Both the position numbers and the translations under genes were made by a program. This document shows positions 3,260 to 50,965 of a stretch of 64,000 nt of DNA, piece after piece. Source of the stretch: Symbiodinium sp. CCMP2592 (Eukaryota; Sar; Dinophyceae; Suessiales; Symbiodiniaceae). A model generated the notes under the pieces. That model searched no databases and was not told the origin of the DNA. It was given only the letters and a program-made list of their open reading frames with translations. How positions within the stretch are numbered: the first letter of the stretch is position 1; each line of letters begins with the position of its first letter. The stretch spans positions 448,083 to 512,082 of the forward strand of contig CAJNDT010005873.1 of NCBI GenBank assembly GCA_905221615.1, read 5' to 3'.

Positions 3260-4465
3260 TCACCTTAGCTGTAGGTCCAGCTCAAGATTTCGGATCTCCT
3301 CAGTGATAGAGGCACCCTCAACTGTCGATGAACAAGATCGCACTAGTGAGTACTTGGCTGCATCATTGTCCACGAAGCTGACTACTTGGGCTCCCCCAAG
3401 AAGATGTTGCCATTTCCTGTAGGAGAGCCACACTGGGTACAGCTCCAAAGCATAAATTGGATTGGACGATTCTTTCAGGAGTCGCCTCATGACTTCCTTT
3501 GGGGCCCTTTCGCTGAATGCCGATACAGCCCTTCCACTCTGGTCGTAAAGAATGGCACCAACTGCACCAAACTCTCGCTCAGGCTCGCAAGATCCGTCGG
3601 TGAACAGGTACCAGGTAGCCAAGGATCGGGCCGAAATTTGCAAAGGAATCGCCGACTCAAGCCTTCTCCTCAAGGTAACAATCGCTGCAGTCACAACTGG
3701 GGGCAACTTCGTGGCAGTCGCCCCCGATCGCGCAAAGTGGTCGATCGTCCGCAAGGCCTGAGCTGGGCCCCTGCCGTACGCGTGTCCTTCAAAGAAGTTC
3801 ATGCGACCCCTCAATCTCTCGGACTCCTTCTGAGAGAGTCGGTTGCACTCCAGCGTTTCGGACAGTGCAGATTTGAGCTCGGATACCCGCTTCTCGGTAT
3901 GCCCAATCTCAATTTTCCCTTGCTTAAATCCCCTAAGGTCAACCGAAAGCCCCAGCATGCCAAACTGCTCACAGAAGGCCGGCGCTTTCTTACCTTCTTT
4001 GGCGAAGTCAAGTCCTAGCAGAGAAAATAAAGACTCTATGGCATAAGCGGTATTCTTTTTCAACGACTCCTTACTGACGACAGAGTAGTCGTCGAAGAAA
4101 GCCGTCCACAGGGCCCTGAGGCCTATAACCCCGATCTGCCAAATGCAGGCGCTTATTCTAAGAAAGGCCGACACTGAGCCTATACCCCCAAAGGGGAGGG
4201 AACTAAACCCGAAGAGGACAGGGTTAGGGTTTCCAGGCTCTGCCACCATGAATCTCAGCAAGTCGAAATCCCGCTGGCAGATTGGGAATTGTTTGTACGC
4301 ACTCTTGAGGTCATACGTACGGCCGCATAAGGAAAAGTTAGGGTCCGTAACCAACGACGTGGCGTACGCAAGCATCGCAGCCATCTTATCGATCGAATGA
4401 AGTACGAACTTTTCCCTGAGCCCCACCGTCGCATTAAGACCGCAACAAGAGAGATCATCTATCAC
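3260..4465 (-). pseudogene. reverse transcriptase-RNase H of YR element A
   Basis: A 401-residue frame. RT motif A reads DLKSAYKQ, motif B SLPFGGIGSVSAFLR, and motif C FFDDY with both catalytic aspartates. RNase H follows: LFTDGS (first Asp), ALELYPVW (Glu) and FVDNDAAK (Asp). The final RNase H block, which in copies B and C reads RVP-S/T-x-SN-x-AD, is absent because the frame ends early. The start at 4465 is not a true start: it joins upstream coding in another frame across a one-base shift near 4465. The enzyme would copy element RNA to DNA. RT identity is very clear; truncation and frameshift suggest a dead copy. Confidence 0.85.
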
Positions 4466-4815
4466 CCGAATTTTGCCTCCTTGAAGAATGCCAAGATTCT
4501 AGCAACCACTTTCCCATCCATCTGTTGCTCCGAACACTTCCAGATCCATCCATGTGCTTCTTCCGAAAGCGTCTCCTCCCAAGTGGCTTTTTCCAGATCA
4601 TCATCCTGCCTGACCTGGGTCTTCTGCAAAGTGGCGGCATTGAAGCCGCTTGACAGAATCTTCAACGACTCCACTGATAGCTCCGGCCTCTTTGCCGACG
4701 GTGGGAACGAACCACTGCTCGGCATCCACCCGCTGAGACTAAAGCCCTCAAGCATATCGTTCACCAGATTGGTGTCGGGAAGGTTGTAGTGCTCTGCCAT
4801 TTCTTGCCACAGCAA
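4462..4815 (-). pseudogene. linker between methyltransferase-like and RT parts, element A
   Basis: This frame carries the region just before the RT; its Met-Leu-Glu-Gly-Phe-x-Leu-Ser-Gly-Trp segment matches the corresponding part of copy C. It is reached from the 724-residue frame by a one-base change in a T4 run near 4815, and leaves to the RT frame by another shift near 4465. With those two changes undone, 6922-3260 would be one polyprotein like the intact copy B. I infer mutation rather than biological frameshifting because copy B needs neither shift. Confidence 0.65.
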
Positions 4816-6922
4816 AAGCCTTTATCCCTCCAAAATTTTCTTTATGTGGGGGGGGGAGGCCCTCGTGCAGCGCTGCTTCCTGTTTTTCCAAAGCCTTGGC
4901 TCTGGAACGCCACTTCGCAATGAAAGCTAGGCGAGTCTTTGCAAGTTTTACCTCGTCCCCCACGATGTTTTCTTTCACCACCTCCTTCAAGATCGGCTCC
5001 AAGGAAGATTTGAAATCAGCAGGGTGTCCACAAGTCACAGCCCGTTTGACAAAGGCTTCAGGCGAGGCAGGTATGCCAAAAGTGAAGACCTCAATCAAGC
5101 TGTCTGGGCGAAGAGACTTTGGATCAAGCTGAAGTTTCACGCCCTCTATGGGAGTTCGTTTCTCGGCCTGGTGCTCCCCCCACATAAGAAGACGCCGAGA
5201 AAGCAACACTGCATGCTGTGGCGCGGCAGGTGGCGAAGTTGACGGCTCGACCACAATTTGCAAACGATGGCTGTACTCCGGGAGCAGCTGCGGCAAGCTA
5301 GCTCCTGCGGGCTGGAGTCCGAGAGCCAGCCGCTGCAACTTCCGCGCTGAGGATTCAGCGGCATCAGGCAAATAGAGCCTCTCTCGAACACCTGCGTTGC
5401 GACACACTTGCTTCAACATGCCTGCCACTCGCTCGCAGAAAATCTGCGGGTAAGCTGACGATGAACGGTCAGCAATGAATTGGCGACGCTCCGATGCCAC
5501 GGGGATCCAAGGTTCATGCTTGCACAACTTTGCTCCGGGACACTGCGCAGCAAGGGAGTCAAAGGCATGATCTGAAGTCCAAAGCTGAAGCAGCTTGGGC
5601 CTGGCACCTCCATGTTGGCACATATGGAATTGCACGGTTGATCCAGCATGCATTGCAGCCAAGGATTTGAAGTAATCCGTTTGCCAGAACAAGGAGGTGG
5701 CAGCATTTTCAAGAACACACCTAACACCACGCTCCAAGGCAGCTTGAAACAGGGTTGATACTGATTGGTAAAGCTGATTTGCCACTTCACACCGCTGCTT
5801 GTCTCTTCCGACGAGGCCATCCAAGCCGTGAGGCCGCTTGGTGCTCCGAAGGGGCTGAGGCACTGGCAAATTCAAGCGCTGGAGCCTGGGAATCGGTTTT
5901 TCCCGGGCTGCACTTACAGTATTCTCTGGAACGGCTGCCCAAATCATGGCGATGCGATGTGATTCTGTGATGACAAATTGTTGAAGGCTGCGCACAGAAT
6001 CTGCATTCGCAAGATCCAACTGATGGACCCGCAATCGTGGTTTGGCATCCGGCTGTTTATGCGAAATCGGCATGACCTGAAACCCCAGCCTGTGGCAGGC
6101 CCAGCTGAGGCCTGCAGATCCGCAAAAGAGCTGGATCACCAGCATGTCATCCACACACAGAGCGGATGGCACCCGGTTGAAGACATGTTCAGCCGTTTGG
6201 ACCGGCCGCTGCAATTGGAAGCCTAGTTCATTTAACTGACAAACCTTCGCAGCACGCAGCTTATGCAAAAACCTGGGAGTGAAAGCGACCAAAACACAAC
6301 GCCGTCCTACCCAAGGTAGGGTACAATGCCTGGTCGCGGCGGCCGGAAGCCACTGGGGCCCTCTGGATACATCTAAAATGAAACCCTTCCTTTGCGCGTC
6401 CTGAGGACAAACGTGAGGGCCTGAGTCGGCTTCATACCAAACCCCTCCCCCTTGGAAAACAGACAAAGGGATTATCAGGTTCCAAGAATCTGGCTCGTTA
6501 TTGGTGTCTTGGTGCAAGTCGGATTGAGTCTGATCAAGAAAAGCGAAGGCAGCAAATGGATAGCCCCCCGCGAATCGCCTGATGAAGCTGCACACAACTT
6601 GCACCGAGATCGGATAGTTCGTCGTGGTATTGTGAAGGCCCACAACACCTCCATGCACAAAACTACCTGCAGAAAAGGATTTTCCCCGAACCTCAGAGCC
6701 CCGGGGAGCATCATCTTTTTCCAGCAAGTCAAAAAGTGTCAAAATTTGCTCTGCAGTTGCTTGTTGATCCTTAAGCGAAGACGCAAACTCCTCAGCATGC
6801 ATGCCCGCACCAAGTTTCGGCTTCTTCGCCAAAGATCCAAAATTTGCAGAGGCTTGTGCAATGTGGCTGGCACCTGAAGACCCGACACTATCAGCAGCCT
6901 GAGGTCCTTCAGGCGCCTCCAC
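4748..6922 (-). CDS. pol N-terminal half, element A: dioxygenase-like + MTase-like
   Basis: A 724-residue frame. Residues about 82-225 form a 2OG-Fe(II)-dioxygenase-like double-stranded beta-helix: H137-x-D139, a GGGVW strand near 158-162, H199 and R207/R208, followed by a VLVAFT strand. Residues about 254-460 form a Rossmann methyltransferase-like fold: FCGSAG (SAM-loop-like motif I), an LENAATS segment at the ENV/ENP position, and a C-terminal GGxRPK segment. At the PC-motif position the sequence is VPENT, without the catalytic Cys. The frame starts with GTG and lies just after a UGA that would end gag, so translation by readthrough from gag is likely. Cofactor use and substrate are unknown; fold assignments rest on motif spacing shared by three copies. 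Confidence 0.7.
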   Translation of the reverse strand: MEAPEGPQAADSVGSSGASHIAQASANFGSLAKKPKLGAGMHAEEFASSLKDQQATAEQILTLFDLLEKDDAPRGSEVRGKSFSAGSFVHGGVVGLHNTTTNYPISVQVVCSFIRRFAGGYPFAAFAFLDQTQSDLHQDTNNEPDSWNLIIPLSVFQGGGVWYEADSGPHVCPQDAQRKGFILDVSRGPQWLPAAATRHCTLPWVGRRCVLVAFTPRFLHKLRAAKVCQLNELGFQLQRPVQTAEHVFNRVPSALCVDDMLVIQLFCGSAGLSWACHRLGFQVMPISHKQPDAKPRLRVHQLDLANADSVRSLQQFVITESHRIAMIWAAVPENTVSAAREKPIPRLQRLNLPVPQPLRSTKRPHGLDGLVGRDKQRCEVANQLYQSVSTLFQAALERGVRCVLENAATSLFWQTDYFKSLAAMHAGSTVQFHMCQHGGARPKLLQLWTSDHAFDSLAAQCPGAKLCKHEPWIPVASERRQFIADRSSSAYPQIFCERVAGMLKQVCRNAGVRERLYLPDAAESSARKLQRLALGLQPAGASLPQLLPEYSHRLQIVVEPSTSPPAAPQHAVLLSRRLLMWGEHQAEKRTPIEGVKLQLDPKSLRPDSLIEVFTFGIPASPEAFVKRAVTCGHPADFKSSLEPILKEVVKENIVGDEVKLAKTRLAFIAKWRSRAKALEKQEAALHEGLPPPHKENFGGIKAFAVARNGRALQPSRHQSGERYA

Positions 6923-7749
6923 TTGTCAGGCCTTTGCTGGCCCCCTTTCGCCCGGCAATTGCTAAAGCTATGCCTCGGCCTGTGACAGAACATACACACA
7001 TGGAATCCCTTCTGGCACTTGGGGAGACCTTCGACAACCTTCGTCTCACTTGCACATCCATCCAGATTGAAAGCCCAGCAACACGGACCTTTCCCGAACT
7101 TCTTGCAGCCCTTGAGGCTGTCCGGGATCACCTTCTTGGCCTTTTTACGGATGCGAGGCTTCTTCGGGGGAGCCGGCACTCCCGGCGGTGCTTCGAGGGC
7201 CGCCTCCACATCCGGCCCAGCAGTAACTTTGCTTGCAACCCCACCTGGCGACGGCAACAACCACATCTGAATCCTCGAATCCAACATGAGGGACTTCAAG
7301 GCTACATTCAGAGGCTTAGTCCCATCAGCCCTAATCTTAAAGGGAGGTGGACACTCTCTTGCCATGATCGTGAAGAGCTCCTTGTCGGCTCGCACCACCT
7401 GGGTTGCGGTGACAGGATGGAAACCTGGCGGTACTGGCGCACTCATTGCGCTCAACAGACGGTGGAGGTAGTCCTGGTGGGTCGCCCAATCAATCAGGCC
7501 ACACTGATCAAAGGCGATGCCCCTCCTCTGGAAAGCAAAATGCATCAACAAAGGAGTCGTAAGATCCGCCTTCGTCTCCGATTCCGGCGTAGCCACTTTC
7601 AATGCCTCCTTCTCGATTTGAACCACAGACGTTTTATGCTCAATGCCTTGGGCAACTTCCGTGTCGCGCTTTCCGCACATAGACGGTGGCACCCACACTA
7701 AGAGTCCGGATTCAAGAATGTGATTGACCTTATCGATTAAGGAGTTCAC
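6739..7749 (-). pseudogene. gag C-terminal part, YR element A
   Basis: This holds the middle and C-terminal gag of copy A. It aligns with the copy C gag over the WVPPS-x-C-x-KRD segment, a QRRGIAF segment, and a C-terminal Cys/His-rich finger (CWAFNLDGC...CQKGFHVCMFCHRPRHSFSNC, shown in part) likely to bind RNA. The N-terminal 133 residues lie 23.8 kb away at 31592-31990. The 7749 start is artificial: coding resumes at the AAC codon 7746-7744. Near the C-terminus, a one-base change in a G5 run would bring gag in frame with the downstream UGA and pol, as in copies B and C. Confidence 0.8.
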
Positions 7750-7916
7750 AACCAGAAGCTACAGCCGCTTTCTACAGCAGGGCACAAACTGGATTTGTTC
7801 AGGGTTCGGCTATGCACTCACACAGACAACGGACTCCTTCCTTTTAAGTGGTGGTCGAACGAAGCAGTTGCGAAGTCTGAAGCAAAGCAAGCTAGAGTTC
7901 GATGCATAAGTCGCCA
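7747..7916 (+). repeat. left end repeat of X, short copy
   Basis: 170 bp, near-identical to 8206-8375. It begins CACAACCAGAAGC directly after GTT at the broken gag codon. Confidence 0.85.
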
Positions 7917-8375: not shown

Positions 8376-10908
8376 AGTATGAAACTGCCGCGGAAAAGGA
8401 AGGAGACCGAATGCTTTCAATCAGGCCAAAGTAAAGACGTGTTCGGTTGACTGGAATGCCGCAAGCCAGCAAGGCCAACCTTCAGAGCCACAAGTCTCAA
8501 GTTGACAACGTTGCACGATGACAAAGCATGACTAGGGAGCTATCAGGCACGATCCCAGGAAACTGAGCCCTGACCGATCTACTCGGCGAAAAAAAAGCCG
8601 CATGTTCGAAGTGCGTCGATGCTGAATGCCCACAGCCCATGCCTTCTGCAGCGCGCCCCGCTGGAAAAAGGTGGCCCTCACCGACGGGGGAAGCAAGGCG
8701 ACCGCGCACCGCCGGCGGTACCACCAAGCAGGGCCAAAAGCGCTTTTTTTTTTTGTTTTACAGCCTGTGATGCTGGACAGCCCACACTCACGGGGGAAGC
8801 GAGGCGACCGCGCGCCGCAAGCGGTACTGTCCCACAGACTTCTTGCTGCTTTTTTGTTTTAGCATGGTAGAAGCGAAGCGAAGACTGAAGCATACCAGAA
8901 AAGTTCAGCAGCTGTTTCTATCTCACTAGTGCGGCCTGAGCAAGACGACCCCGGTTTTTGACCCGTGCCTACGGCCAGCCCTCACTGACGGGGGAAGCGA
9001 AGCAACCACGCACCGTCAGCGGTACTAACCCACAGGTTCATGGCAGACTTGAAAGCTCAAGCTGTTGGCGGTTGCCACAACAAGGATAAGGATGCATGTT
9101 GGGCCAGAGGCGCACAACCGGACGAAGATGCCGCAAACGTGCTGGCGGTAGGCGGGTATCGGTAGGCGCATGTGACCGCACGTGTGCCACCACACTGAGT
9201 TGGGACGTGCCGTCCCAGCTACAGAAGCAGGCTTGTGCATTCGCCCGTCAACACCAGCATTAGCGGAGCATGTTGAGGACCTGCATGAAACGACAACCGT
9301 CGAGCCAGATGCCACGCATAGCGTGTGCTGCCACACAGAAATTACCGCAAAGCTTGTGTGATGTTGGGGACCCCGGATCAGCAATGCGTGGCAATGCGCA
9401 ACTCAGGAATCTTCGCAGGCTTCGCCGATAGAAAGGTGACACCAATCAGGATGCCAGAGCCTGCACCGCCCAGGGGCTGCATCACCCCAAGTGACCACAA
9501 ATCTGTCGCCCAGGATTGCAGCGGTTGCATCAGTGTGGGCCACGAACATGCTGCTATGCTGCCGCCGATCCCGTACGGCATGCTGCCGCCGCCAAAGGAT
9601 AATCCCACGTGATCAGAAAAGGCACCCGGGACGACTTGTAGCTTGAACGTGATGCAAATCTGCAGCTCCTCCCGTACAAAATGTAGTACTGGCAGCTTGC
9701 AGCTGTTGCGCCTCCTTCAGCCGCAACTGCATGGGACTACCATCGCCACTGCATTTACGAGGTCCGGTGACTACACAACTACGAAAGTCCACCAGGTCGG
9801 ATGTTCTAAAGGGTGCCCCCCTGTCTTGCTCCGGACCTTAATACCCAACCTAACAGACAAATACGTTTTCCGTTCGGCAGGGTCTTCAGAGAGTTGTTAA
9901 AGGCCTAAAACCTGGTTAAGCAGACCTTGGACCCTCACACGTACAACCTTTCCGAGGTTAGCAGCAAATGCAGCAAAGCAATCCTGATCTGTTGCACATG
10001 CGTCGTCTGCTTCCTTGCGGCGCTGCTGCCGCCGCCAGGGGCAGAATCACCAGAAGTGGCTCTAGATCGGTCACACGGACTTGCCGAGCTGCATCAGTAA
10101 AAGCCACTATCTGCGATACCGATGTCAATTGTCACCAGAGCCAGTGTCAGACTGCAGCACATGCATCTACAAACACTTGGAGCTGTTGGGCATGCCGCAT
10201 TTGCTCCTGCATGGCAGTGCTGTCACCACCAACCACATCAGCGTCCCAAAACGAACATGGAAAAATCGCCCAGGAAGGCAGCAAGTGCACCTATGTGCAC
10301 CTTTTTGGGAAACTGGATCTGTTGCATATGCTTCAGCTGCTCCTGTACGAACCTGCTGTCGAGCCGAGAATCTGCAAGCCAATGGCACGTCGCAGGATCT
10401 TCAGCTGAAACTTGCAGCAACACTGTTGCTAATTATTCCAAAAACCAAGACATTCACTTGTAAAAGCATCTAATAAAACCCGTAGTGTTCATATGTAGCG
10501 CAGCTGGACGGAAGAGACAGGTCGCACATCTGCATCGTCATGCCACCAACCCAACATGGGTCTGTCAGCAAGAAAGGCCTCGAAAGCACCAGACCCTCTA
10601 GTGTTTGCATGTAGCGGCTGGAATCGAGTAGCAGCACATTTGCACAGAATTCGCCCAACTGTGACTGTCACTGCCCCAAACAATTGTCGCATCAAGGCCT
10701 AAATGATGCATCACGAAAAAATGGCTGTGAATGTGCCGCCAAAACTCCAGAGCATCTCCGTCACCATTAGAGCCAACAGGATGGCACTTCGGCAAGAGCG
10801 CGCATGCAGCAAAATTGCACATGTAGCTACGTAGCATCACGTGGCCGTCGATCATCAAAGCAAGCCCTAAACACAAGCAGAGGCTTCACAAAGGGGCAGC
10901 CAAGAGCC
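8376..10908. other. interior of X, left arm; no gene seen
   Basis: I see no convincing coding frame. A GC-rich motif (CTCAC-GACGGGGGAAGC...CGGTAC) occurs three times, near 8675, 8790 and 8970. From about 9965 to 10400 there are degenerate copies of the GATCTG-TGCACAT...CAGCTG satellite-like motif that fills 26800-31200, which supports these being two arms of one insertion split by copy B. Confidence 0.5.
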
Positions 10909-11225
10909 TTCTTTCAGAAACCTGATGCTTTACAAAAAGGTTGAGTGATATCAAATATCACGGACATCAATCATATAAGACAGAATCCTTCAAATAATAA
11001 TGGAATATATTTCAATACCAAAAGTATAAAGTATCAGATCCTCACAATATATAAAAGGAGGATCCAAGGAGTTGTCGCGCCACACTCTTTTTATTCGCAC
11101 GGTGATCTGGGGTGAATTCTAACTCGGGAGCCCCCACAGCTCCGGCCAAACCGATGTTCGAGCATCACGGGTTTGGCAAGCTGAGATTTTTCAAGATCAA
11201 GGAGGGCAGCGTCCCGAATGCCCCC
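10909..11225 (-). repeat. B2 repeat of copy B
   Basis: About 315 bp, near-identical to 11441-11755. It forms the outer 3' end of copy B. It is AT-rich, with a TATATAAAAGGAGGATCC stretch near 11048-11065. Confidence 0.85.
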
Positions 11226-11252: not shown

Positions 11253-11440
11253 AAAAGAAAAATTTCTTGCCTCTCACTTTGAGCAGACTCGCGGGAAAGA
11301 TAGAGATCTCCGATCTGCCATGTCAAAGAAATGAGGCTCATGCAAGAAATGTTTTCCAAAAACCTCCGATGTAAAACACGGCAGCTTCACTGCCTGTCAA
11401 GTTTCCAAAAGAAAGAAAAGTCTGCAAGCAGAAAATGTTC
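11253..11440 (-). repeat. A2 repeat of copy B
   Basis: 188 bp, matching A1 at 24786-24999 except that A1 carries a 26-bp insert with a spliced-leader relic. It lies between B2 and B1, as expected of split direct repeats. Confidence 0.85.
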
Positions 11441-11755
11441 TTCTTTCAGAAACCTGATGTTTTACAAAAAGGTTGAGTGATATCAAATATCACGGACATC
11501 AATCATATAAGACAGAATCCTTCAAATAATAATGGAATATATTTCAATACCAAAAGTATAAAGTATCAGATCCTCACAATATATAAAAGGAGGATCCAAG
11601 GAGTTGTCGCGCCACACTCTTTTTATTCGCACGGTGATCTGGGGTGAATTCTAATTCGGGAGCCCCCACAGCTCCGGCCAAACCGATGTTCGAGCATCAC
11701 GGGTTTGGCAAGCTGAGATTTTTCAAGATCAAGGGGGCAGCGTCCCGAATGCCCC
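11441..11755 (-). repeat. B1 repeat of copy B
   Basis: 315-bp copy of B2. Its inner edge is five bases from the pol stop at 11761. Confidence 0.85.
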
Positions 11756-11760
11756 TGACA

Positions 11761-14700
11761 TCACGCGAACCCCTGATGAAGAAATCTCTGGTTAGAACTC
11801 TCATCATGGATGAAAGCTTCTACAACCTTGGCGCCTACCAAGCTGAGTATGCTTTGCCCATCACCTCGTGAGGGAGGGTCGGCCACGTTTGAAAAGGATG
11901 GCACTCTCTCGTACCATGCAACGCAAGGAGCCTCAGCCTCAATCACTGCAAGATAGTGGGCTAAGCGATACATGGATTCGCTCTTGCTCAAACCTTTGAT
12001 TGCTGATGTGCGTGCAGCTTCGTTGTCCAGCCAGAAGATGACTCTTCGGTTGCACAGGCTGTTTTGGAGCATACGACGCAAAGTGACTAAGGCGTAGAGT
12101 TCGATTTCGCATATAAGCTGTGATCCCACATCCAGCTTCCATCGCTCCAAAAGCTTAGTGGGCACACAACCAGCAAAAACCCTAGCGCTATCGTCTAGCG
12201 TGTCTAGAACAACCGCACCTATTCCAGCCCAAGGGTCTTCCCAAGCACCGTCCGTCCAAACATGGATGGGCGGTCGCGGGTCAAAGATGCGAAGGATTCT
12301 CGGTGGCGTGGTGCTCAAGACAGCCTGGGTGGTTTTGCAGAAGCGCTGTATTTCGGCAGCAGCCGGGCGTTTCCCACGAACCAAGGATAGCAGGAAGTGG
12401 CATGCCGGCTTTAGGGATCGGCCCGCGAAGAATCCAGAGGCGTAGTTTAAAAGTCCCAGGAGCACCTGTGCCTCATGCCTGCCAAGGGTACCTCGGTCAA
12501 AGATGTTACCAAGCATTTCGGCAATGCGCTTGACACGGCCTTCTTTGTTGGCTAGTACCGCAACACCCTCGTGGAGGCGGCTGACGTCCAGCTGCATTCC
12601 GAGTACCGTGAAGGTTTCTTCATACGGTTGACCCTTTATCCCGGTCTGGGCAAAGCGCCACCCCAAGAGTTCCAAGAATTCCGAAGTCAAACCGTCAAGT
12701 TCCTGGGCACCCTCTCTCAAAGCGAAGAGAGGATAATCGTCGAAGTAGTTTGCTGAGGGGATCTTCAGCACTTTGCACAGCAAGAAATGCAGGCTTCGGG
12801 CCACCCTCACGAATCCATACACCGACGAAGTCAAGCCAAACATCAATGCGTTTGCAACAAAGAATTGTGGTTCCCCCTTCTCATTGGGATGGCAGATTAC
12901 GGCAATGTCACGGTGCAGCGGTAGTACCGCTAATTGCTTGTACGCTTTCGAAAGGTCGAGGGTCCGCCCTAGCCATTGCCTAGCAGGGACACCCAGGCGA
13001 TCTGAGCGTTCCTTTTCAGCCCGGGCAATCAGCAGAGCTAGGCCTGAAACAAAGTCGGCTCCTTGAAGCTCCAGCTTGATCAGGGAAGTGAAAGCTTCGT
13101 TGACCTGGGAAGCGTGCCCATCATCTATGGGTCGAACCTTCTTTTCAAGGCCGTGCTCAAGAACAAATCTAGGAATTACGCCCCAATCCGAATGGCCGAA
13201 GATCTGAGTGACCTGTGCTTCAGTGTAGGGCCCCTCGATGAAATTTTCAGCAACCTCGGAGTTAGAGGCCTCCTGAAGAAGAGAAATTTCCTCAGGGGTC
13301 GCACGGTTCGGTCTCGACAAGGCTGCACGGCGTCGCAAGGAGGCAGTAGCACGGAGTTCTGATTCAGACATGGAAGCCATAGCCACCTTTGTCTTGAAGC
13401 ACTCTGGCTTTTCCGAAGTCCCTACGAGAGGCACCCCCTTTTTCATTAGATCCACTACCCCCATGTCGTCAAAACCATGATTCCTCAAAAGAGACTCCCA
13501 CAGACAAATCCTTTTGCCTTTGATCACCTTCTCGAACCACGGCGGGAAGGATGCATGAAGTTTCCGCTCGTCTTCTTCCAGGGTCTTGGCGAGGAGCTTA
13601 ACTTTAAGGAGTTCTAGCTTCCTAAGCTGGTTGGCCTTGGCAGAATCATGGGTCATGCAAAAGTCGACCGCTTCCAACACTTCCGGGCCAGCAGCAATCG
13701 CTTTGTCCACCGGGTGTTGCAAAGTGTGGGCTTTGGAGACATGTTGACTCATGTCAAGCCAGTGACCTACCTTAACAGGTCTAGAGCCCGCTGGATCCGA
13801 AGTTAGACCCCCACCACTGTCCCCTGCAGCGTGGGTCAGGAGGATCTTGCAAGACTTGTCAGGTTTAAATTCAGGAGTTTCCCAAGTGACCTTGTGAAAC
13901 TCCGGAATAAGTGGCGCATGGCGATGGCTTTGCTTGGCGGCCGCGGCCAGAGCTGCAGCGTGGAAGTCAGTTGCTGGTGAAAGAGTCCGGCTGGACTCAG
14001 AGGCGCAGCGAGCAACACAATCGGCCATGCGGGTGCACAGCAAAGGCGGATAGCACGCACTGAGGCGGGACGACGACCACCAGGATGCATGCTCATGATC
14101 CTGGCTACACTTCGCTGCCAAAGGAGAAAACAAGCCTTTGGAGGCCAAAAGTTTGCATTGCTTAGGGCGATCGCCCCCATGTGCGCACATGGCAAAGGTG
14201 ACTTGCTCAAGCTTGCTGGGTGGCCACCTGATGCCAGCCTGAGATGCGAAGCGCTGCAAAATGTGCCACAGCAAAGAATTTGCCGGGTTTTCGACACTTA
14301 CCGAAATGTTTGCTTCAAGGCAGAAGCAAACGACATCGAAGCAGAAGCGAAAAAGGGCATTTTCCTTCCTAAGCTTTATGCCTTCGGCAGAGGACCACCG
14401 GATGGTGGGCACACCTAAGCAGTGTTCCGACGTTCGGAGCTTGGTAACTTGGGGGCCCTGGAGTCTACGACCGGGCTTTGAAGCTTGGCGCTGAGAGGCT
14501 GATGCAGAACCTGCAGGCACACCCAGGTGAACGTGAAAAGGCTTGCACTGCTTCAGCATTGACATGAAGATTTCACGGCCTGCTTCCGTGGAGAAGTCCA
14601 GATTGGCCGTGGGGACCATTGCCCCAGCAAGCTTAGCGTCAAAGGCGAGGACTTTGAATCCCTTCCGGAGGCAAGCTCGAGCGAAACCCCCGGTGCCTGA

Positions 14701-15408
14701 AAAGATTTCGAAGATCCACGGCTCATCAGGTTGTGGGGCCTGCGTTTGCTCGGCGATCTGTAGCGGGAAACCCAAGGAGGTCGGGGGCCTAAACCCTAAG
14801 GACAAGAGGGAATGTGCCGCTTCAAGGGTGAGCTTTGACAGATCCGAGACGCAAAAGGCCACAGCAATCAGCCTGTGGCCTTGCCATGGTTCAGTGCAGT
14901 GGCTTCGGGAGTAAGCCTCAAAGGTGATGGGTCCAGCGGACACATCAAGCAGCTCGCCAGGAGTCGGTTTGCCGTTGATAGGACGGAGTTCCGAACCCTG
15001 TTCGCACTGGGCCCAGATGTGGCCTCCAGTGAACGATCCGATCGGAATGACACCTGTGGGGGACTTATGATTCTTGGAATCAACATGCATTGACGTACCG
15101 GAATTGCAAAACAGGAAAACTGTAGTAAAGAAAAGGTCTGGGAGCTGAGCTCGGACAAAAGCTGTGATGGCGGTGGTCGTTTGTGGACAGCTCTTACACT
15201 CTCCACGCAGACCCTGAAGCCCTCCCTGAAAAAAAGCCCCAACTCCAAAATTCGGTTGCTGAGTCCTGGCGTCGGGGCGTAGAAATCCATCCGCAACGAG
15301 ATGTTCATGCAACTTTTGCAGATCAAGGCGGGATGGTGGCGCATCGACTGAATTAAGTTTCTTTGCGAAACACTCCGAGCTCGGAGCTCGGCTTGCACGT
15401 TGGGCCAA
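11761..15408 (-). CDS. intact pol of copy B: dioxygenase-like, MTase-like, RT, RNase H
   Basis: One 1215-residue frame holds the whole enzyme set. Residues 53-205 are 2OG-Fe(II)-dioxygenase-like (H108-x-D110, TGGHIW 128-132, H170, R179). Residues 230-445 are methyltransferase-like (EIFSGTGG 234-241; VPAGSAS where PC is expected near 298; VENP 372-375; GGDRPK 411-416). RT follows: motif A DLSKAYKQ near 816, motif B MFGLTSS near 855, motif C YFDDY near 887. RNase H ends it (WTDGAW near 1050, CEIELYA, WLDNEAA, PSFSNVADPPSR). The first codon is TTG; the frame is open back to the gag UGA (15453-15451), and the first ATG is inside the dioxygenase part. I infer readthrough from gag. This is the best copy for functional reading. 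Confidence 0.85.
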   Translation of the reverse strand: MAQRASRAPSSECFAKKLNSVDAPPSRLDLQKLHEHLVADGFLRPDARTQQPNFGVGAFFQGGLQGLRGECKSCPQTTTAITAFVRAQLPDLFFTTVFLFCNSGTSMHVDSKNHKSPTGVIPIGSFTGGHIWAQCEQGSELRPINGKPTPGELLDVSAGPITFEAYSRSHCTEPWQGHRLIAVAFCVSDLSKLTLEAAHSLLSLGFRPPTSLGFPLQIAEQTQAPQPDEPWIFEIFSGTGGFARACLRKGFKVLAFDAKLAGAMVPTANLDFSTEAGREIFMSMLKQCKPFHVHLGVPAGSASASQRQASKPGRRLQGPQVTKLRTSEHCLGVPTIRWSSAEGIKLRKENALFRFCFDVVCFCLEANISVSVENPANSLLWHILQRFASQAGIRWPPSKLEQVTFAMCAHGGDRPKQCKLLASKGLFSPLAAKCSQDHEHASWWSSSRLSACYPPLLCTRMADCVARCASESSRTLSPATDFHAAALAAAAKQSHRHAPLIPEFHKVTWETPEFKPDKSCKILLTHAAGDSGGGLTSDPAGSRPVKVGHWLDMSQHVSKAHTLQHPVDKAIAAGPEVLEAVDFCMTHDSAKANQLRKLELLKVKLLAKTLEEDERKLHASFPPWFEKVIKGKRICLWESLLRNHGFDDMGVVDLMKKGVPLVGTSEKPECFKTKVAMASMSESELRATASLRRRAALSRPNRATPEEISLLQEASNSEVAENFIEGPYTEAQVTQIFGHSDWGVIPRFVLEHGLEKKVRPIDDGHASQVNEAFTSLIKLELQGADFVSGLALLIARAEKERSDRLGVPARQWLGRTLDLSKAYKQLAVLPLHRDIAVICHPNEKGEPQFFVANALMFGLTSSVYGFVRVARSLHFLLCKVLKIPSANYFDDYPLFALREGAQELDGLTSEFLELLGWRFAQTGIKGQPYEETFTVLGMQLDVSRLHEGVAVLANKEGRVKRIAEMLGNIFDRGTLGRHEAQVLLGLLNYASGFFAGRSLKPACHFLLSLVRGKRPAAAEIQRFCKTTQAVLSTTPPRILRIFDPRPPIHVWTDGAWEDPWAGIGAVVLDTLDDSARVFAGCVPTKLLERWKLDVGSQLICEIELYALVTLRRMLQNSLCNRRVIFWLDNEAARTSAIKGLSKSESMYRLAHYLAVIEAEAPCVAWYERVPSFSNVADPPSRGDGQSILSLVGAKVVEAFIHDESSNQRFLHQGFA

Positions 15409-15450
15409 GGGGACTGCCTCAGGAGCTGGCCCATCCCCTGATTGGCCATC

Positions 15451-15453: not shown

Positions 15454-16669
15454 CTGCATGCCATGCGTGCACTCACTGTACGGGTGATTCTTATTGCATC
15501 CTACTTTCCAGCACTGGTGATATCCTTTCGGGCACCTGCCTTTAACCACCTTGGCCTTACAAGTGCCCAAATTGAACCCAAAACAATTTGGCCGGTTCTG
15601 CGAGTCTCTGGCGGAACAACCTTCAGGTATTTCAATCCTAGGTGCACGACCCTTGCCCCCGCCTTTATTGCCTTTATCGGTTATCGCCTTTGCCTTTGAC
15701 TTTCTTGGGCGGTGCATCATCATCGCCGTCCTGGGGCCTCTTGGTCGGATGGGCCGGTGGAGGCGGTGAGAGCAAGGGTGACAAGAACTGAGTGATGTCA
15801 TGCGACACCGACAGACGCTTCAGCTCAGAATCCAATGGCTTAGCAGCACCTACCGGTTTCTGAAGCTTGCCCTCAAGGTTATTGGCTGCACGGATGAAGA
15901 GCTCCTTATCGGCTGCTACGATCTGCGACAAGGAGACCTTGGTGTACCCCGTGGGAACCTGACGCTGGGTCAACTCAAAGATGGAGTTAACCCACTCCTC
16001 CATGACCTCAAAGGTGCACAGGTTGCCCAAGTCTAGGGCTAGCGATCGGCGAAAGAAAGCCTGCCGAAGCGCATAGGCACCATTCGTGTCGCACACCGGA
16101 TCAGGGGCCTTGGTCCCGAGCTTAAGGTTGCCCTCCGGGTCAATTTGGATCGATGAATCCTTCTTGGCTAAGCTCAGCTCCTGGGAACGAGAGGTCCACC
16201 TGTTCATGGGCAGGTAGCGCAAAGAATTGTTTTCCAACATGTCGGTGACCTGGTCGATGCTCGCATGAGATGGCTGATTTGATACGGTGAAGACAACACC
16301 TTTCAAGCGAGCTTGCTGGGCTTCTTGTCTGGCCAGCCGCTCGGCCGTAGGAAGTTTCTTGATGGTGTTTTCCGGCTGGCCTTCAACTCGGGTCCTCAAG
16401 TCCGCGATGTTGAGTGACTGGCTCTCAAAGAGGAGTCGCCGGATCACAGAAACTTGAAACGCAGAGGGCCTCGGGTCCACGACCGTGGCCAACCACTCAT
16501 CGATGGCCTCGTCTGTCAGGGCTGAGGAGAGCTCGCAGCAGCAAAGGCAATTTTTCCGAAGGTGTCGTAGCCTTTTTCTTTGAGCTTCCCATACAACTCC
16601 GGTGTCATGCCGATGCGAAGACACCTTTCCTGAAACGCTGCTTCGGAGTCCAAGGTGGCTGACGTCATG
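15451..16669 (-). pseudogene. gag of YR element B, frameshifted
   Basis: The likely start is the ATG at about 16669, giving an N-terminus (DSEAAFQERC) that matches copy C (DSEASFKARC) and copy A (SEAALRQRC). Coding shifts frame near 16525 into the frame that runs to 15674, then again near 15690 into the frame with the finger (CFGFNLGTC...CPKGYHQCWKVGCNKNHPYSEC, shown in part), ending at 15451. The basic linker before the finger is Lys/Gly-rich. Gag would package element RNA. The ATG-like extension to 16942 in the middle frame is not supported by the other copies. Confidence 0.75.
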
Positions 16670-17249
16670 GCTGCAAATGAATGCGTTAAACACCCGATCT
16701 GTGATCTTTGACCAAACACGTGACGGATGATGTTTTGTCTGGTTGCATTCATCACTGGCCGTCTGCTGTGAGCCACGGCCGCAATATGGGCAGCTCAATC
16801 TTCCACCCGTGCCACGAGCCAACCCTGGCCGGCACAAAGTGATACGGTCTTCATCCATCAAGGCCAGCCCCGGGTGTCGCGTGACACCGGCTGACATTTG
16901 CATGTGGTGACTCGGACTTACAGTCATCACCACGTTAATCAATCCCAGCGCTTCTCTCTCAAGCCAACATATGTCAAAACGGAAAGCTCCGTCGTCAAAT
17001 ATGTCACGCGGGCCTCGGGTGAGAAACTCACCGGCCCGGAACCCAAAAAGGGGTTTGTGTGCCCAACCTTGCGTATCAGCCCTAAGCCATCAGCCCGACA
17101 GGATTACATGTACGCGGCCACGGGCACGAATGCCGGCCGATCAGCAGGGACTGTTTATGGACTTAAGAGGCGCAGACAGATCTCGGCATCACCAGGTGGA
17201 TTGCAAACATACGTTCCCCACGGCTTTTATCCGCGGCGTCCGGACCTGG

Positions 17250-19512
17250 TCAAAACTCCGATGCTCGACGACACTGAATACAAGGCTCGGGTTCCTCCTC
17301 GTCTTCAGTGGTGAAGACTCTGTACCTTGAGGTGACCGGCCTCCCGCAAAAGAAGCTTGTAGCATCCCTAAGTTTGTGTACGATGTTTGACAGGGAATGG
17401 ATCATCAGCTGGTCGGCGGTGCACTCCGTAAAGGGAAGCCTAGACCCGGTAGCCCCCGCTGGGCGCCCAAAGAATTCCGCCTCGGACTCAGCGGACCTCG
17501 AAGCCAAGGACTCCAGCTCGTCGGGTTCCTCGTTCGGTAGTGCCGGAGCGTCTGGCTCCGGGCGGCTGAAATGTCTCGACGCTACAGCTGCAACCCTGTC
17601 AGAAGTCGACATGTCGGGATCGAAGTCCCCAGCTCGGATGCTCTCGAAAAGTGCAAGGAGTTTCCCAGCGAGGGAGATGTAGTACTGGCGGGAATAGATG
17701 AGATTAGATGAACCACCACGTTTGAAGTGGTGCCCGAGCAGCAACTTCTCCTTGGCACTGAAATGGACTGTGGAGCTCCATCCCACCCATGAAAGTAAGG
17801 TAGCCTTCAGACTATGTGTACCAATCGATTCGTCAGGAGAGGCCCCCATGCCAATGGTAAGAAGGAACTCCTCAAGGAGGTCCGAGCCCTCCTCCGAACT
17901 CATAGGCACCGTGGCCCAGCAACCGGCACGCTGAGACCAGGACACCCCGCTGGGAAATCAAGGCCTTCAGCAGCACGAGCCTGTAGCCACAACTCCGCCC
18001 AAGGTTGGCCGCTTGCCCCTCCAGCCACGCATACGTAGGGCAGAAACTTCGTTTGGGCGTCAGCCGTCAAAGAAGTCTTAGAGCCTAAGCCTGAAGCAAT
18101 AAGAAGTTGCCCACGGCCTTCACCTATCAGCTCGAGTTTCTTGACTTTTTGAGCATCCGCCCACCGGCAACATGAATGCACGCAGAAGAGCATGAGGCCG
18201 AGCACGCATTGCAGCCAAGTTGAAGTCTTGGTCATGAGCTCCTCCAAGGCTTTAACCCTCGCATACGACAAGGGGTCTCGCTGCTTGAGCGGCTCCTTGT
18301 TAAGTCGCATGTCTCTGGCAATGCCCCGCACCCGTGATGATAAAATGACATCCAAGGACATGAAGTTGAAAACAGCCACCCCGTGCAGAAACCCCAGCGC
18401 TTCCACAAAGTGTGAGGCAGTCGAGGCCTTGGCATCCGAGCTGCGAAGCTTGTTGAAAATCTCGTAGGCTTGGGGCTCGGTCAAGCGCCAGGGCGACTCG
18501 AAGCCTAGGTCATATGTCATGATAGCCAAAGATTGCAACGAAAGAGCTCGTTTTTGAATTGTTGTGGAGGCCTTGGCCCTAAAGGCATCCGCCAGACTAG
18601 CTGCAATCACCTCGTCAGGCTCCAGACCCAAGCCTTGTTTTAGCAGGCTTGCCCCAAGGCGAGTCGCTTCCGGGTCTAGCAGTATCAAGACCTTGAAGCG
18701 TTTCAAGGCCCCGTCTCGAATGTCATCATCACTCTTGGTCAGCCGAACACGCGTCAGGCGACGCACCACAGTCCATGGGATTTCACTTGCTGCTTCCGGT
18801 GTAGGCTCCGACGAAGACGCTGCTCCCATAAAAACTTCCCTCACTCCCACTGCAGGCACAAAATTGAAAATGTCATCATAGGACTTCTGAAGAAATGTCT
18901 TGGGCGGGCTCCAAGGCAGCGAGGGCAGGTCAATTCGTCTCTTCTTGCAGAAGGCCACCGTGGCGGCCTGTCTCGCATCATCATCAGCAGCAGCACCACA
19001 CAACCAAGAAGCCGTCTCCCCCCCTGAACAATGTCAGGAGGAAGGGCTCCACGAGGTTCTATCGGAGGATCTGTCTCTCCTACCTGCGAGTACCATTCCC
19101 TTTCCTCAGCAAAGGAGGGTTCGTAAGCTAAATCAGAAGGTTCCCTATCCAACGAAGGATGGGTGGCGAGACTCCCAAGATCACACTCCGAAAGAACCCT
19201 CTCCTCAGAGAATCTGAACTCCCGAGGGCTGTTGCCCTCCTGTTCCCTCGCAAGTAGCAGGTTCCAAGGGGAGCCCGAGCAGTCTTGAGCGAGGTCCTGG
19301 TCTTCGTCACTAATCTCAACGGACTGGCCATCCCCAACCGAAACCCTGTAGTCCCGAAGTCCCCTAACACCCCCTGGCAGCGACTCGGGACTGGCTGAAG
19401 GCAGGTCCCCCAGCGACAAGGGCAAGGGAGGTTCAGGCGGGAAAGGTGCCGGCTCAAGTGGAGTGGAGACCTGCTCCAAAATTTGCCCTGTGACAGGGCA
19501 AGTCACTGGCAC
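17250..19512 (-). pseudogene. tyrosine recombinase of YR element B, frameshifted
   Basis: Three frames make one protein. 19512-about 19000 is an acidic, Pro-rich N-terminus. After a shift in a CAG/CAT-rich run near 18980-19005, 19003-17900 carries the core-binding region and catalytic Arg (CCRWADAQK). After a shift near 17940, 17945-17250 carries THSLKATLLSW (HxxK in place of the usual HxxR), LGHHFKRG and the nucleophile in LIYSRQY. The C-terminus has an FCGR...CIQCRR motif like that of copy C, perhaps a zinc ribbon. The enzyme would integrate the circular DNA intermediate. Two shifts suggest inactivation. Confidence 0.8.
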
Positions 19513-22350: not shown

Positions 22351-22385
22351 TGCCGGGCCGATCTTCCGGAAAAGGCTTCATGATA

Positions 22386-24785: not shown

Positions 24786-24999
24786 AAAAGAAAAATTTCT
24801 TGCCTCTCACTTTGAGCAGACTTGAGCCAAAATGGCTTTGAGCAGACTCGCGGGAAAGATAGAGATCTCCGATCTGCCATGTCAAAGAAATGAGGTTCAT
24901 GCAAGAAATGTTTTCCAAAAACCTCCGATGTAAAACACGGCAGCTTCACTGCCTGTCAAGTTTCCAAAAGAAAGAAAAGTCTGCAAGCAGAAAATGTTC
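24786..24999 (-). repeat. A1 repeat of copy B
   Basis: 214 bp at the 5' end of copy B, matching A2 (11253-11440) plus a 26-bp insert. The outer edge at 24999 is set by the A2/B1 junction at 11440/11441, where the same GAAAATGTTC ends. Confidence 0.85.
24824..24840 (-). other. dinoflagellate spliced-leader relic
   Basis: The minus strand reads AGCCATTTTGGCTCAAG, identical to the last 17 nt of the 22-nt dinoflagellate spliced leader; the leader's first bases are replaced. It is part of a 26-bp segment present in A1 but absent from A2, flanked by a repeated TCTGCTCAAAG. Leader relics in dinoflagellate DNA are known to arise when trans-spliced mRNA is reverse transcribed and reinserted. Here the relic is in sense orientation near the 5' end of the retroelement. 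Confidence 0.8.
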
Positions 25000-27900
25000 A
25001 TCTTCGGAGTTAACCTTAGCACATGCGTGCTTGCACGTAACTGCTGTCGGCACCGAAGTCGGCAACGACACACGTAACCCCAGATCCTTCATAGAAAGAT
25101 TGCAACACATGCGCCACAATGCTATGGGTCGGCTGCACAGGTCGCAGCTGATTCTATACCGCACTGCTGACAGGACCACACACAGATTAGCAAGGTTTTT
25201 TTTACCGAATCAGAAGCTGCGATTGCTGCACATCGCGCTTTTGAGGCCGCACGTGACTGTTGTCACCAGCTGTCTGCGCAAATACGCCAGAACATGGCAG
25301 CAAGCGCACCATCTGCTGCACTTCGCAGCTGGGCCTGAAACTTGCTGATGTCGCCAGCGACGTCGGCATCACTTGATGCTGCAACCTGCGCCCGCACAGA
25401 AAACACAGTGACGAGGTGACGAGATCACAACTCTACGAGCGGCACAACGCACGCACCAGAAGTGATGTGTCCACTGAAATGTAAGACCGCATGGTCAAGC
25501 TTTAAGCTTAAACAAAACACCCTGAAAGCAGGTGCAAAGCGCCTGCACCTATTCAGCGGGTACAATGCCCACAGCTGCGCAACACTTATGCAAATGGGTC
25601 ACGCACGGCCCGGCTGAGAGCAGCGTACCAACAGGCTAGAAGAGGAACAGAGTCACAGCCTTCCCCGAAGTTGCGACAGGTGGATAATATCGTTTGTTGT
25701 GCTTTGTGTTATGTTTGTTGTTTTTTTAGCCTGCTAATCAGCCCCAGGTCAGCCTGCAGAACCTGATGACCAGACTGCTAAGCAAAGGGTCAGCTCGCAA
25801 CAGCAAGCTGCAGAGCCTGTTGGTCAGACTCATAGGCGCAGCCTGCTAAACGCAGGACAGCCCTCGCAAGTGCTGCCAAGCAAATGTTCATCGCGCAGCA
25901 ACAAGCTGCAGAGCTTGCTGATCAGAATCCTAGGGGCAGCCTGCTAAACGCAGGACAGCCCTCGCAAGGCTTGCACCGCTCGGCACTGCTAAGCAAAGGG
26001 TCAGCGCGCAACAGCATGCTGCAGAGCCTGTTGATCAGAATCCTAGGGGCAGCCTGCTAAACGCGGGACAGCCCTCGCAAGACTTGCACCGCTCGGTGCT
26101 GCCAAGCAAATTGCCAGCTCGCAGCAGCAAGCTGCAGAGCTTGCTGATCAGAATCCTAGGGGCAGCCTGCTAAACGCGGGACAGCCCTCGCAAGTCTTGC
26201 ACCGCTCGGTGCTGCCAAGCAAATTGCCAGCTCACAGCAGCAAGCTGCAGAGCTTGCTGATCAGAATCCTAGGGGCAGCCTGCTAAACGCGGGACACCCC
26301 TCGCAAGTCTTGCACCGCTCGGTGCTGCCAGGCAAATTGCCAGCTCGCAGCAGCAAGCTGCAGAGCTTGCTGATCAGAATCCTAGGGGCAGCCTGCTAAA
26401 CGCAGGACAGTCCTGTCTGTACCGCTCGGTACTGTTATGAAGCAACCTGCCAACAAGCAGCCAGCAAGCTGCGGAGGCTGCTGACCAGACGCACAAGTGT
26501 GCGATGTTGCCTGTTTGCGAAACAATACATGAACAGATAAAGCGCGCAGGCCGGCAGTAGACGCAGTGACGCGGAGCCCGGTCGGCTGATGCTGTGCGGC
26601 ACTGCTGTTATCACCCCCAGCGGCCTTCGATCCATCAGCTGGGATTGCGGCAAGTACGCACTCGGAAACTGGATCTGCGACACATCTCGCAGCTGACTGG
26701 CGCTGCCCACGAGAGCCTGATCCCAGCTGAACACATACGTCTATGCCCCAGGATGGCAACAAAGGCATGACTCCGCGCCGCAAGAGGCCACGGATCCAAC
26801 ACACAGAATTGCGGTAGGTGTGCAAATAGGAACCAGGATTTCCTGCGCATCTCCCAGCTGGCGCTGCACTCCACACTGCTGTCACCCCCGCTGCGAGCAA
26901 GGTTCCGTGCAACCCTGCGTGTTTTGGACTGGATGCACAATCAGAGGATGCACGTCCTGCAGCTGGCACAGCACGCCACTGTTGTCGCCACAAGGCTCGG
27001 GTTTACACCCCATTGCGGTCGCAACCGCGGCCAGCGTGGCTCCACGGGATGAGCCTTCCAAGGCAATAATCGCAAATGCATGAGAAGAAGCTTGAATCTG
27101 CTGCGTATCTCGCGACTGACGCACGAGCCACTGACTGCTGTCGGCACCGCTGCGCACCCAGGATTCCAGTCCATGTGCAACCAGCCGCTGGGACCTGCTG
27201 CACAACTCGCAGATGACACCACCACTGAAGCGTGGCTCCAGCTCGCGCTACTGCCACGTCAGACTGATGACCAACATCCGACCCATCGGCACTGGCGGGT
27301 GCCTCAGCATACAAAGCTCGGCCAAAAAGGGGTCCTGTTTGACGGAGGGACCTTTGGCTTTTTTTTTATTCTGCAAAAAACCGACAAATTGGGGTTGGGG
27401 GAGGCATTGGCTACCTGCTCACACGGGCTCAGGAGTGGGACATCTATGACCATTGATCCTTCACCCAGGGTTGCAGCTGACGCGCAAGAAGAAGCTTGGA
27501 TACGCTGCACGTCTTGCAGCTGCACCGGTTTTACCCCAGCTAGCAAAAATCCATCACATGTAACCACAGATGCATAACCCAGGAATGCAACAATTACGAC
27601 TCAGAAGCTTGCACCTGCTGCTCATCTCACGCCTTACGCTGCACTCCATTGCTGCCGCCCCGCTGCAGGCATGGCTCCAGGTGAACGCGAACTCTGCACC
27701 AAGGCCGCAGCAAAATTTGCACAGTTGCAGCTGATGGTTGCACTCAACGGTTGGTACCGCCGCTGCACGTTTGACCCCGAATGATCGCGATTCTTCACCC
27801 AGAGAAACAGCAAATGCGCCATCAGAAAGTTGGACCTGCACCATCTCGCTTCTGATGCTGCGCCACCGTGTTGTCACCACTACTTGCGACATATTGCGAC

Positions 27901-49867: not shown

Positions 49868-50677
49868 TCACTCTGTCATCTGACTGATGATAGCGACAAG
49901 TTTGATCAGTGCTGGGGAGCCAAATTTGTCGATGGCTTTGGGCGGGACACCCCAGGCGACTGCAGCGGTCTGCAGTGTCTGTTCTTGTGAGTTGCTGAGT
50001 GAAGGAAATTCCGAAGCAACAATGTCAAGGTACTTTTTTACCTGTGTTTTTTGTTTGTCGCTGATGCCTTTGATGGCACCAAACCATCTGGTGATGCCGG
50101 ATTCAGAGTGAACACCAGTGAAATGATCCTGAAACCAAACACTGGCTTTTGTAGGCTGCTGAAAGATGCGCTGGGGATCCATCTTGGGATCGAGGGGTGC
50201 CGCCTTCGTTGGTGTGAGAGTTGACTGCTTCTGTCGCTTGGCGCCCAGAAGGGAGCGTCCCGGAAAATGCATACCTGTGGTGGATGACGATGCTGGGGAA
50301 GCATGTAACGCGTTGGTATCTTGTTCTGCAACTGTTGTTGTGGAAGGGGAGAGGCTACCAGTGGTAAGTCTGGTGTCGTTGTGTGTAGCGTCATCTATGG
50401 TAGCTCGTTTCTGTCCACGAGTGGTTGTGGTGGGGGAAATCTCAATTGTGGAAATTGAGTCAGGTGGTGGAGAGGGCGTGTTGGTAGGAGTGCTAGGTGC
50501 TGTGGCTCGTTTTGGTTTCTTTGGTGCTGGTGTGCTGGGTGCCTCAGTGTTTGCATCCGGAGCACGGAGAGCTTCGATTGTCTCCAGTGCTGTTGAAAGT
50601 CGTGCTTCCAGGTCACTGATACGGTGTGCAGCCAGAGTGTCTGCTTCTGTCGGCTGCGAAGATTGAAGTGGTAGATG
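49868..50677 (-). pseudogene. PLE ORF2, 3' part (split by copy C)
   Basis: 270 codons including the stop, contiguous in frame with 60027-59446 once copy C is removed: the last codon on the right is CCT (59448-59446) and the next is CAT (50677-50675). It is Thr/Ser/Pro-rich with an early helix (HRISDLEARLSTALETIEAL) and a structured C-terminus (KASVWFQDHF...GITRWFGAI...KKYLDIVASEF). It ends GAG-UGA-CUC, and the GIY-YIG module follows in the same frame. Family unknown. Confidence 0.65.
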
Positions 50678-50896
50678 ATTTTGGTCCCGTAGGGAACCGG
50701 AGGGATGAAATCTTTATTTATCCTCCCAACTTGTCGACGGTTTTATATTCTTTATAAAACCGAGTGCGCGTTCATTTCTTTGGAACATGTCAGAGCTGTC
50801 TTGCAGTCACTGACTTGGTTCATCTCCGTTGCCCTTGCTCTCAAGGGACGGGGGGGTGGGAAACCTACTTTCCTCGGCATAAGCGAAACTGCTTGT
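50678..50896 (+). repeat. A1 repeat of copy C
   Basis: 219 bp, identical or nearly so to 59001-59219. It starts ATTTTGGTCCCGTAGGG and contains CTTTATTTATCC and TTCTTTATAAAACC, possible promoter-like AT segments. Confidence 0.95.
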
Positions 50897-50965
50897 GCTG
50901 GGGGGTGGGTGCCGTAGTTGTTAGCCGTCGGGCGGGCGGGTTAGATCCACCCTCTGGTGGATGCC

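Follow-up and report, generated by a model that had tools for sequence, protein, structure and literature searches.

One of the closest counterparts known for the elements reported here is SymbioDIRS-Dnmt3 from Symbiodinium (de Mendoza et al. 2018, PMC5890265), a dinoflagellate DIRS-like retrotransposon whose repeats form two sets, A and B, and in which a DNA-modification domain is part of Pol together with reverse transcriptase (RT) and RNase H, a tyrosine recombinase is encoded by a separate open reading frame (ORF), and the domains occur in two orders. Its modification domain is a Dnmt3 domain named by Pfam, and in the main text the terms TET, dioxygenase and hydroxymethyl do not occur. Fungal DNA transposons and Helitrons carry their own TET/JBP-type oxygenase with an HxD motif and a downstream His (PMC12730594, 2025), and the same survey did not find TET/JBP in any retrotransposon. 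Orchid Ty3/Gypsy retrotransposons are reported to have taken up a 2-oxoglutarate (2OG)- and Fe(II)-dependent oxygenase, a functional ALKBH5-like domain of the AlkB type (PF13532) that demethylates N6-methyladenosine (m6A) in RNA (PMC9289625). Here we analyze a stretch of 64,000 nt from Symbiodinium sp. CCMP2592 ("the window"), which contains three elements, termed A, B and C, that resemble DIRS/PAT-like retrotransposons and SymbioDIRS-Dnmt3 in particular, and that share, in the front part of their retroelement Pol frames, a domain of ~180 residues. In contrast to the systems above, this domain is a predicted 2OG-Fe(II) oxygenase rather than Dnmt3 and is followed by a module without a Pfam match, it belongs to retrotransposon Pol rather than to DNA transposons or Helitrons, and it is Tet_JBP-like, in DIRS or copia Pol, rather than AlkB-type. 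We consider it probable, if by no means certain, that, in these DIRS/PAT-like elements, Pol has as its N-terminal part a TET/JBP-type oxygenase, which hydroxylates a nucleic-acid base by the mechanism outlined below. In the open-licence literature we came upon no description of dinoflagellate retrotransposons with a TET/JBP-like domain, and within that literature the present one would be the first TET/JBP-type base oxygenase found in a retrotransposon Pol, although element-borne base oxygenases as such are known.

The original prediction, made from the window alone, described three diverged copies of the domain, fused to RT. All three copies exist, A and B on the minus strand and C on the plus strand (the strands had been left unstated). 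Delimited from stop to stop, the B frame spans 11761-15450 and is open over 1229 aa, while the A and C frames span 4748-6925 and 54964-57852, respectively; the A and C domains are 29% and 34% identical to that of B. Fusion to RT holds for B, where the oxygenase domain, RT (YFDDY) and an RNase H-like tail all lie within one open frame, but not for A, whose open frame ends ahead of the RT, which is encoded by a separate ORF. The Pol of C is split into two overlapping frames in the window and forms a single frame of 1280 aa in near-identical relatives at two further places in the genome (L002 and L003; L-numbers denote loci from the organism's own genome, searched as a 1.098-Gb assembly of 5383 contigs, and P-numbers denote database proteins). 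That assembly bears the mark of a dinoflagellate: the 21-base core of the spliced leader has 217 + 212 exact occurrences in it and none in the reversed control. A search of the window for the spliced leader gave no match.

AlphaFold2 folded the B domain with high confidence from a deeper alignment (predicted local distance difference test, pLDDT, 94.3), and all 50 matches listed in each of two comparisons with PDB structures were 2OG-Fe(II) oxygenases. A double-stranded beta-helix had been expected, and the solved folds nearest to the model are of that class; on the strength of this model we assign the domain to the 2OG-Fe(II) oxygenase fold with high confidence. Among the matches listed, Naegleria TET1 (NgTET1) had the highest Z (11.5), and FTO, AlkB and PHD2 scored nearly as well. 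The solved structures of NgTET1, Coprinopsis CcTet and Chlamydomonas CMD1 have a similar oxygenase core at ~9-14% identity in the listed rows; all three are cellular enzymes and are not known to be fused to RT.

Fold scores alone do not separate TET from FTO, AlkB or PHD2. The original prediction had named the TET/JBP, AlkB and prolyl-4-hydroxylase (P4H) types side by side; the oxygenase class stands, and among these types the sequence evidence favours TET/JBP. A search of the whole genome with the Pfam family Tet_JBP (PF12851; 150 of 155 candidates scored) gave four matches (E 2.2e-4 to 3.0e-4), all of them in frames of 1231-1283 aa that carry the present domain family (best domains of the family hidden Markov model, HMM, at E 1e-54 to 1.2e-41), and the same search gave no match in 14 control genomes. 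No genome match lies above the curated cut-off of 34.9 bits (best 29.6 bits), and because of this we call the domain TET/JBP-like and do not file it as a member of PF12851. Scanned against the whole of Pfam, L056 and L057 matched Tet_JBP (E 3.6e-6 and 4e-6) and no further family, and P0005-P0010 matched no family; when 19 family members were scanned singly, Tet_JBP was the sole family to match more than one of them (2/19, best E 0.13). Because the six-frame search ignores introns, it might overlook a TET/JBP gene of the host if its exons are short. A single-protein database search with B residues 40-240 yielded 561 candidates, none at E<=1e-3, PDB sequence searches with two family sequence sets gave no match, and scans of the 19-member set against PHROGs and NCBIfam gave nothing meaningful. 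Three scans of viral contigs returned no confirmed relative, and the scanned viral collection thus lends no support to a viral source.

The best surviving alternative is an AlkB/FTO-like activity, in which the domain would remove methyl groups from element RNA or from alkylated bases (m6A, 1-methyladenosine, 3-methylcytidine). It has in its favour that FTO and ALKBH6 are nearly tied with NgTET1 by Z, that ALKBH3 and AlkB occupy rows 1 and 3 of the Foldseek comparison, and that a functional domain of this type is reported from the orchid elements. Demethylating activity of this kind is also known from the AlkB domains of plant RNA viruses. However, the AlkB-type Pfam family (PF13532) was not listed at E<=10 for the 19 members, L056, L057 or P0005-P0010 (the scan filters drop weak matches), whereas Tet_JBP was found in two of the 19 and in L056 and L057, and we regard an AlkB/FTO-like function as rather unlikely. 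Lower still we place a protein hydroxylase of the P4H kind acting on the element's Gag or on a host chromosomal protein: P4H and PHD2 do appear among the structural matches listed, but the fusion to RT and to a methyltransferase-like module points to nucleic acid, and Tet_JBP was the sole family at E<1e-3 in the Pfam scan of L056, L057 and P0005-P0010, which makes this reading improbable.

The residues expected of a TET/JBP-type active site are maintained in the copies examined. The His, Asp, His and Arg originally proposed in A, B and C are the same as those found here once the later start points used then are allowed for (Table 1 gives stop-to-stop numbering). In TET2 an Asn lies five residues past the first iron His, and in NgTET1 the His-Arg spacing is 10. 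Conservation of the four columns across the family, named beforehand as decisive, was found in the copies examined. Our census covered 76 matches in fetched sequences, 61 of them from the organism's own genome, with L001 and L006 (the window itself) left out. Eight residues (H, D, N, H, T, W, G, R) are all found in 60 of the 61, the remaining one being a fragment without those columns; 15 of 18 database proteins matched, ten keeping all four key residues and five (P0010-P0014) lacking the C-terminal columns. Among all 76 matches the tetrad shows gaps in some and substitutions in none, although copies with lost residues may be under-counted because the loci were drawn from the best-scoring matches to B. 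In 18 representatives below 70% identity, 11 of 218 counted columns are invariant (G, H, D, N, G, H, T, W, G, R, F) and include the tetrad. The hypergeometric probability that four named columns all fall among these 11 is 3.6e-6 (~6e-6 with 191 profile positions), a figure that assumes exchangeable columns, for sequences that are related by descent and include two (A and C) from which the motif was first read.

Selection on the domain, which the original prediction had deduced from the retained residues, is also seen in the Nei-Gojobori ratios of nonsynonymous to synonymous substitution rates (dN/dS), which lie between 0.10 and 0.15 in pairs of useful divergence, indicating purifying selection: 0.110 for B/L016, 0.129 for C/L004, 0.152 for L037/L038 and 0.100-0.134 for further pairs. 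The ratio is 0.203 for B/L038, where dS is near saturation, and ranges from 0 to 0.54 in near-identical pairs with few changes; pairs with saturated dS were given no ratio. For the N-terminal linker it reaches 0.43 (B/L016) and 0.79 (C/L004), but 0.105 in L037/L038.

The module next to the oxygenase resembles an S-adenosylmethionine-dependent methyltransferase as judged by its motifs, read in the order Gly-rich first motif, APPCGTASRARE, ENP; PPC and ENP or HP are found in some members. Neither Pfam nor PDB sequences gave a significant match (a cytosine methyltransferase appeared at a non-significant E of 0.95), and PF00145, the Dnmt3-type C5 methyltransferase family, did not match A, B, C, six module sequences or P0015-P0022. 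We therefore use the name methyltransferase-like and reject the module as a proven C5 methyltransferase. At the motif-IV position, 77 aligned stretches (several pieces of one copy among them) have Cys in 17 cases, Ala in 34, Val in four, Glu in one (A) and Leu in one, with 20 uncovered; closely related copies of B inflate the figure for Ala. The Cys is gone from all three window copies and their families and from L037/L038 and L040/L044/L047/L049, and is retained in L046/L055, L056-L059, P0007, P0015-P0018 and the elements in which the module comes first, where L041, L048 and L054 still have Pro-Pro-Cys (PPCETFSR, PPCSTYSRAR and PPCKTFSRAR). The module is as constrained as the oxygenase, with dN/dS of 0.077-0.091 in more distant pairs. 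Its persistence after loss of a catalytic-looking residue is what might recommend seeing the oxygenase, too, as a structural relic, a folded part without catalytic activity that binds nucleic acid and retains these residues because they stabilize the fold. We give this little credence, because the tetrad belongs to just 11 invariant columns of the 18 representatives and, some gaps apart, none of the 76 matches has a substitution in it. Mere resemblance of motifs, with no homology to 2OG oxygenases, could appeal to the lack of any Pfam oxygenase family at E<=1 in the whole A, B and C proteins and to a first model, poor and since discarded, for which just the three window copies were used (pLDDT 45.8), but it is contradicted by the deeper model, its structural matches and the Tet_JBP matches, and can practically be set aside.

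If the domain is a TET/JBP-type oxygenase, the HxD motif and the distal His would bind Fe(II), the Arg would bind 2OG, and a nucleic-acid base would become hydroxylated. From the fusion to RT and RNase H we infer that the enzyme would act on the element's own complementary DNA, during or after reverse transcription, oxidizing the 5-methyl group of thymine, to 5-hydroxymethyluracil (5hmU), or of 5-methylcytosine (5mC); the new copy might then resemble host DNA or evade methylation-based silencing. The oxygenase residues are lost in no fetched copy that covers them, unlike the motif-IV Cys of the neighbouring module, which is lost in several lineages. Since the one can go while the others stay, the oxygenase probably needs no mark made in cis by its own polyprotein, and this independence would favour thymine or host-made 5mC as the substrate. 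Thymine, 5mC and RNA are all candidate substrates, with 5hmU as the putative product. 5hmU is an abundant base in dinoflagellate DNA, and we know of no enzyme identified as its maker. In Breviolum minutum 5hmU is reported to be enriched in multimapping reads (PMC11071213), an observation that fits a role of the oxygenase but does not show it.

A protein search of the genome with the B domain gave 4883 first-look candidates; the 150 that were scored all have E<=3.2e-28, with a stop codon in five, and lie in open frames of 125 to 3525 aa, many of them 1200-1400 aa. Twenty fetched genome stretches revealed three architectures. In the first (window copies, L038, L044, L046 and others) the oxygenase is followed by the methyltransferase-like module, RT and RNase H. 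In the second (L041-L043, L045, L048 and L054) the module comes first and the oxygenase second; in L041 and L045 our reading of the sequence places RT (FVDD) and RNase H after them, although a Pfam scan of L041 and L048 found no RT. The third is of the Ty1/copia type (L050-L053): the oxygenase lies ahead of RVT_2 in L051 and L053 (E 4.1e-11 and 7.9e-11, above the cut-off) and, in L053, after an integrase-like stretch, rve being matched in L053 only (E 7.5e-6, below the cut-off). No methyltransferase motif was seen on reading L050 and L053. Protease and integrase motifs, as we read them, give P0021 the look of a copia-type polyprotein, although no Pfam family is listed for this protein. In a tree of 19 domains, in which 7 of 16 forks are open and branches are long, the copia-type L050 groups with L048/L054, in which the methyltransferase-like module comes first, and with P0019, which has a long branch (97/98), a hint of what would be domain exchange. 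The original prediction had included neither the methyltransferase-like module, nor the DIRS/PAT-like tyrosine-recombinase type of element, nor the Ty1/copia-type occurrences.

In C, split direct repeats enclose Pol, which is preceded by a gag-like ORF with a Cys/His tail and, before that, by a tyrosine-recombinase-like ORF; B is laid out likewise on the minus strand, and the arrangement A1 ... B1-A2-B2 is confirmed in both (Table 1). Given the high identity of the repeats and the near-identical copies, we take the elements to have moved recently. RT with YxDD (YFDDY in B and C) and RNase H are present in Pol, with Pfam matches below the cut-off to RVT_1 (B, L044, L046) and RT_RNaseH_2 (C). 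The tyrosine-recombinase-like ORFs of the window have no integrase-family match in Pfam; in an alignment of three of them, which is evidence at the motif level, K, H and Y align in all three, R in the two that cover it, and the H before K in two of three.

Table 1. Coordinates of the oxygenase, methyltransferase-like and other features of elements A, B and C in the window
Feature	Position	Strand	Basis
B: TET/JBP-like 2OG-Fe(II) oxygenase domain, Pol residues 43-224	14779..15324	-	AlphaFold2 pLDDT 94.3, Foldseek/VIA matches, family HMM
B: HxDxxN iron motif, H122/D124/N127	15070..15087	-	columns invariant in 18 representatives
B: distal His H184 to Arg R193, HCTEPWQGHR	14872..14901	-	H and R columns invariant in 18 representatives
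A: TET/JBP-like oxygenase domain (H138/D140/H200/R209)	6188..6751	-	family HMM, residue census
C: TET/JBP-like oxygenase domain (H187/D189/H237/R247)	55276..55812	+	family HMM, residue census
B: methyltransferase-like module, Pol residues 243-470, motif-IV Cys to Ala	14041..14724	-	alignment
A: methyltransferase-like module, motif-IV Cys to Glu	5396..6163	-	alignment
C: methyltransferase-like module, motif IV degenerate	55879..56463	+	via near-identical copy L002
B: RT core, weak RVT_1 match, YFDDY	12673..12984	-	RVT_1 E 0.022; sequence
B: RNase H-like C-terminal segment, limits approximate	11764..12279	-	motif reading
B: gag-like ORF, zinc-knuckle-like Cys/His tail	15674..17089	-	sequence reading; no Pfam match
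B: tyrosine-recombinase-like ORFs, two overlapping frames (17250-17957, 17900-19033)	17250..19033	-	HSLKATLLSW ... GHH ... Y; no Pfam integrase-family match
B: terminal direct repeat B2 (B1 partner 99.05%)	10908..11224	-	repeat comparison
B: repeat A2, two pieces matching A1 at 98.8% and 100%	11253..11445	-	repeat comparison
B: direct repeat B1	11440..11755	-	repeat comparison
B: terminal repeat A1	24786..25004	-	repeat comparison
C: terminal repeat A1 (partner A2 identical)	50677..50896	+	repeat comparison
C: tyrosine-recombinase-like ORF, RCRWSD ... HSLKSS ... GGH ... Y	50945..53380	+	alignment with two other window ORFs; no Pfam match
C: gag-like ORF with Cys/His tail	53575..54963	+	sequence reading
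C: RT remainder (YFDDY) and RNase H, overlapping frame	57710..58807	+	RT_RNaseH_2 E 0.0011, below cut-off; sequence
C: repeat B1 (B2 partner 99%)	58824..59006	+	repeat comparison
C: repeat A2	59000..59219	+	repeat comparison
C: terminal repeat B2	59269..59451	+	repeat comparison
A: RT and RNase H, separate ORF	3260..4498	-	weak RVT_1/RNase_H matches
A: gag-like ORF with Cys/His tail	6739..7758	-	sequence reading

In B, more than 5 kb (19560-24786) separate the recombinase ORF from A1, and 19578-21457 is built of short tandem repeats, which advance by 10-11 bases at a time, and of inverted repeats. Just upstream of the gag-like ORF of A lie two direct repeats (7744-7919 and 8203-8379, 99.4% identical), placed unlike those of B and C; they may reflect the other domain order of DIRS elements. 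Adjoining A, the minus strand at 579-2531 encodes a copia-like Gag with a zinc knuckle (zf-CCHC E 0.075) and an aspartic-protease-like ILDSGAD stretch. Further tyrosine-recombinase-like ORFs (SSKSFKATVLSW ... YSRDA) lie at 32378-34329 on the minus strand, with 37% identity to the recombinase-like protein of C, and at 47091-50713, also on the minus strand, RT-like frames overlap one another and an ORF includes a GIY-YIG-like stretch, a combination that resembles a Penelope-like element.

It is tempting to go further and suppose that retroelement TET/JBP-like enzymes are a source of dinoflagellate 5hmU, acting on the thymines of new element DNA, that the 5hmU enrichment reported for repeats is their footprint and that the host may have come to rely on them, the domain having moved between DIRS and copia elements, two unrelated classes, as a mobile DNA-modification cassette with or without its methyltransferase-like partner; this is a speculative scenario, which we would not yet count as likely. 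What the elements do present is a predicted TET/JBP-like oxygenase that is an integral part of Pol, in three architectures, in retrotransposons that are numerous and have recently moved, within a lineage with 5hmU in its DNA, and a likely base oxidizer that shares one retroelement polyprotein with a methyltransferase-like module. They thereby offer concrete candidate enzymes for the formation of 5hmU, open to testing.

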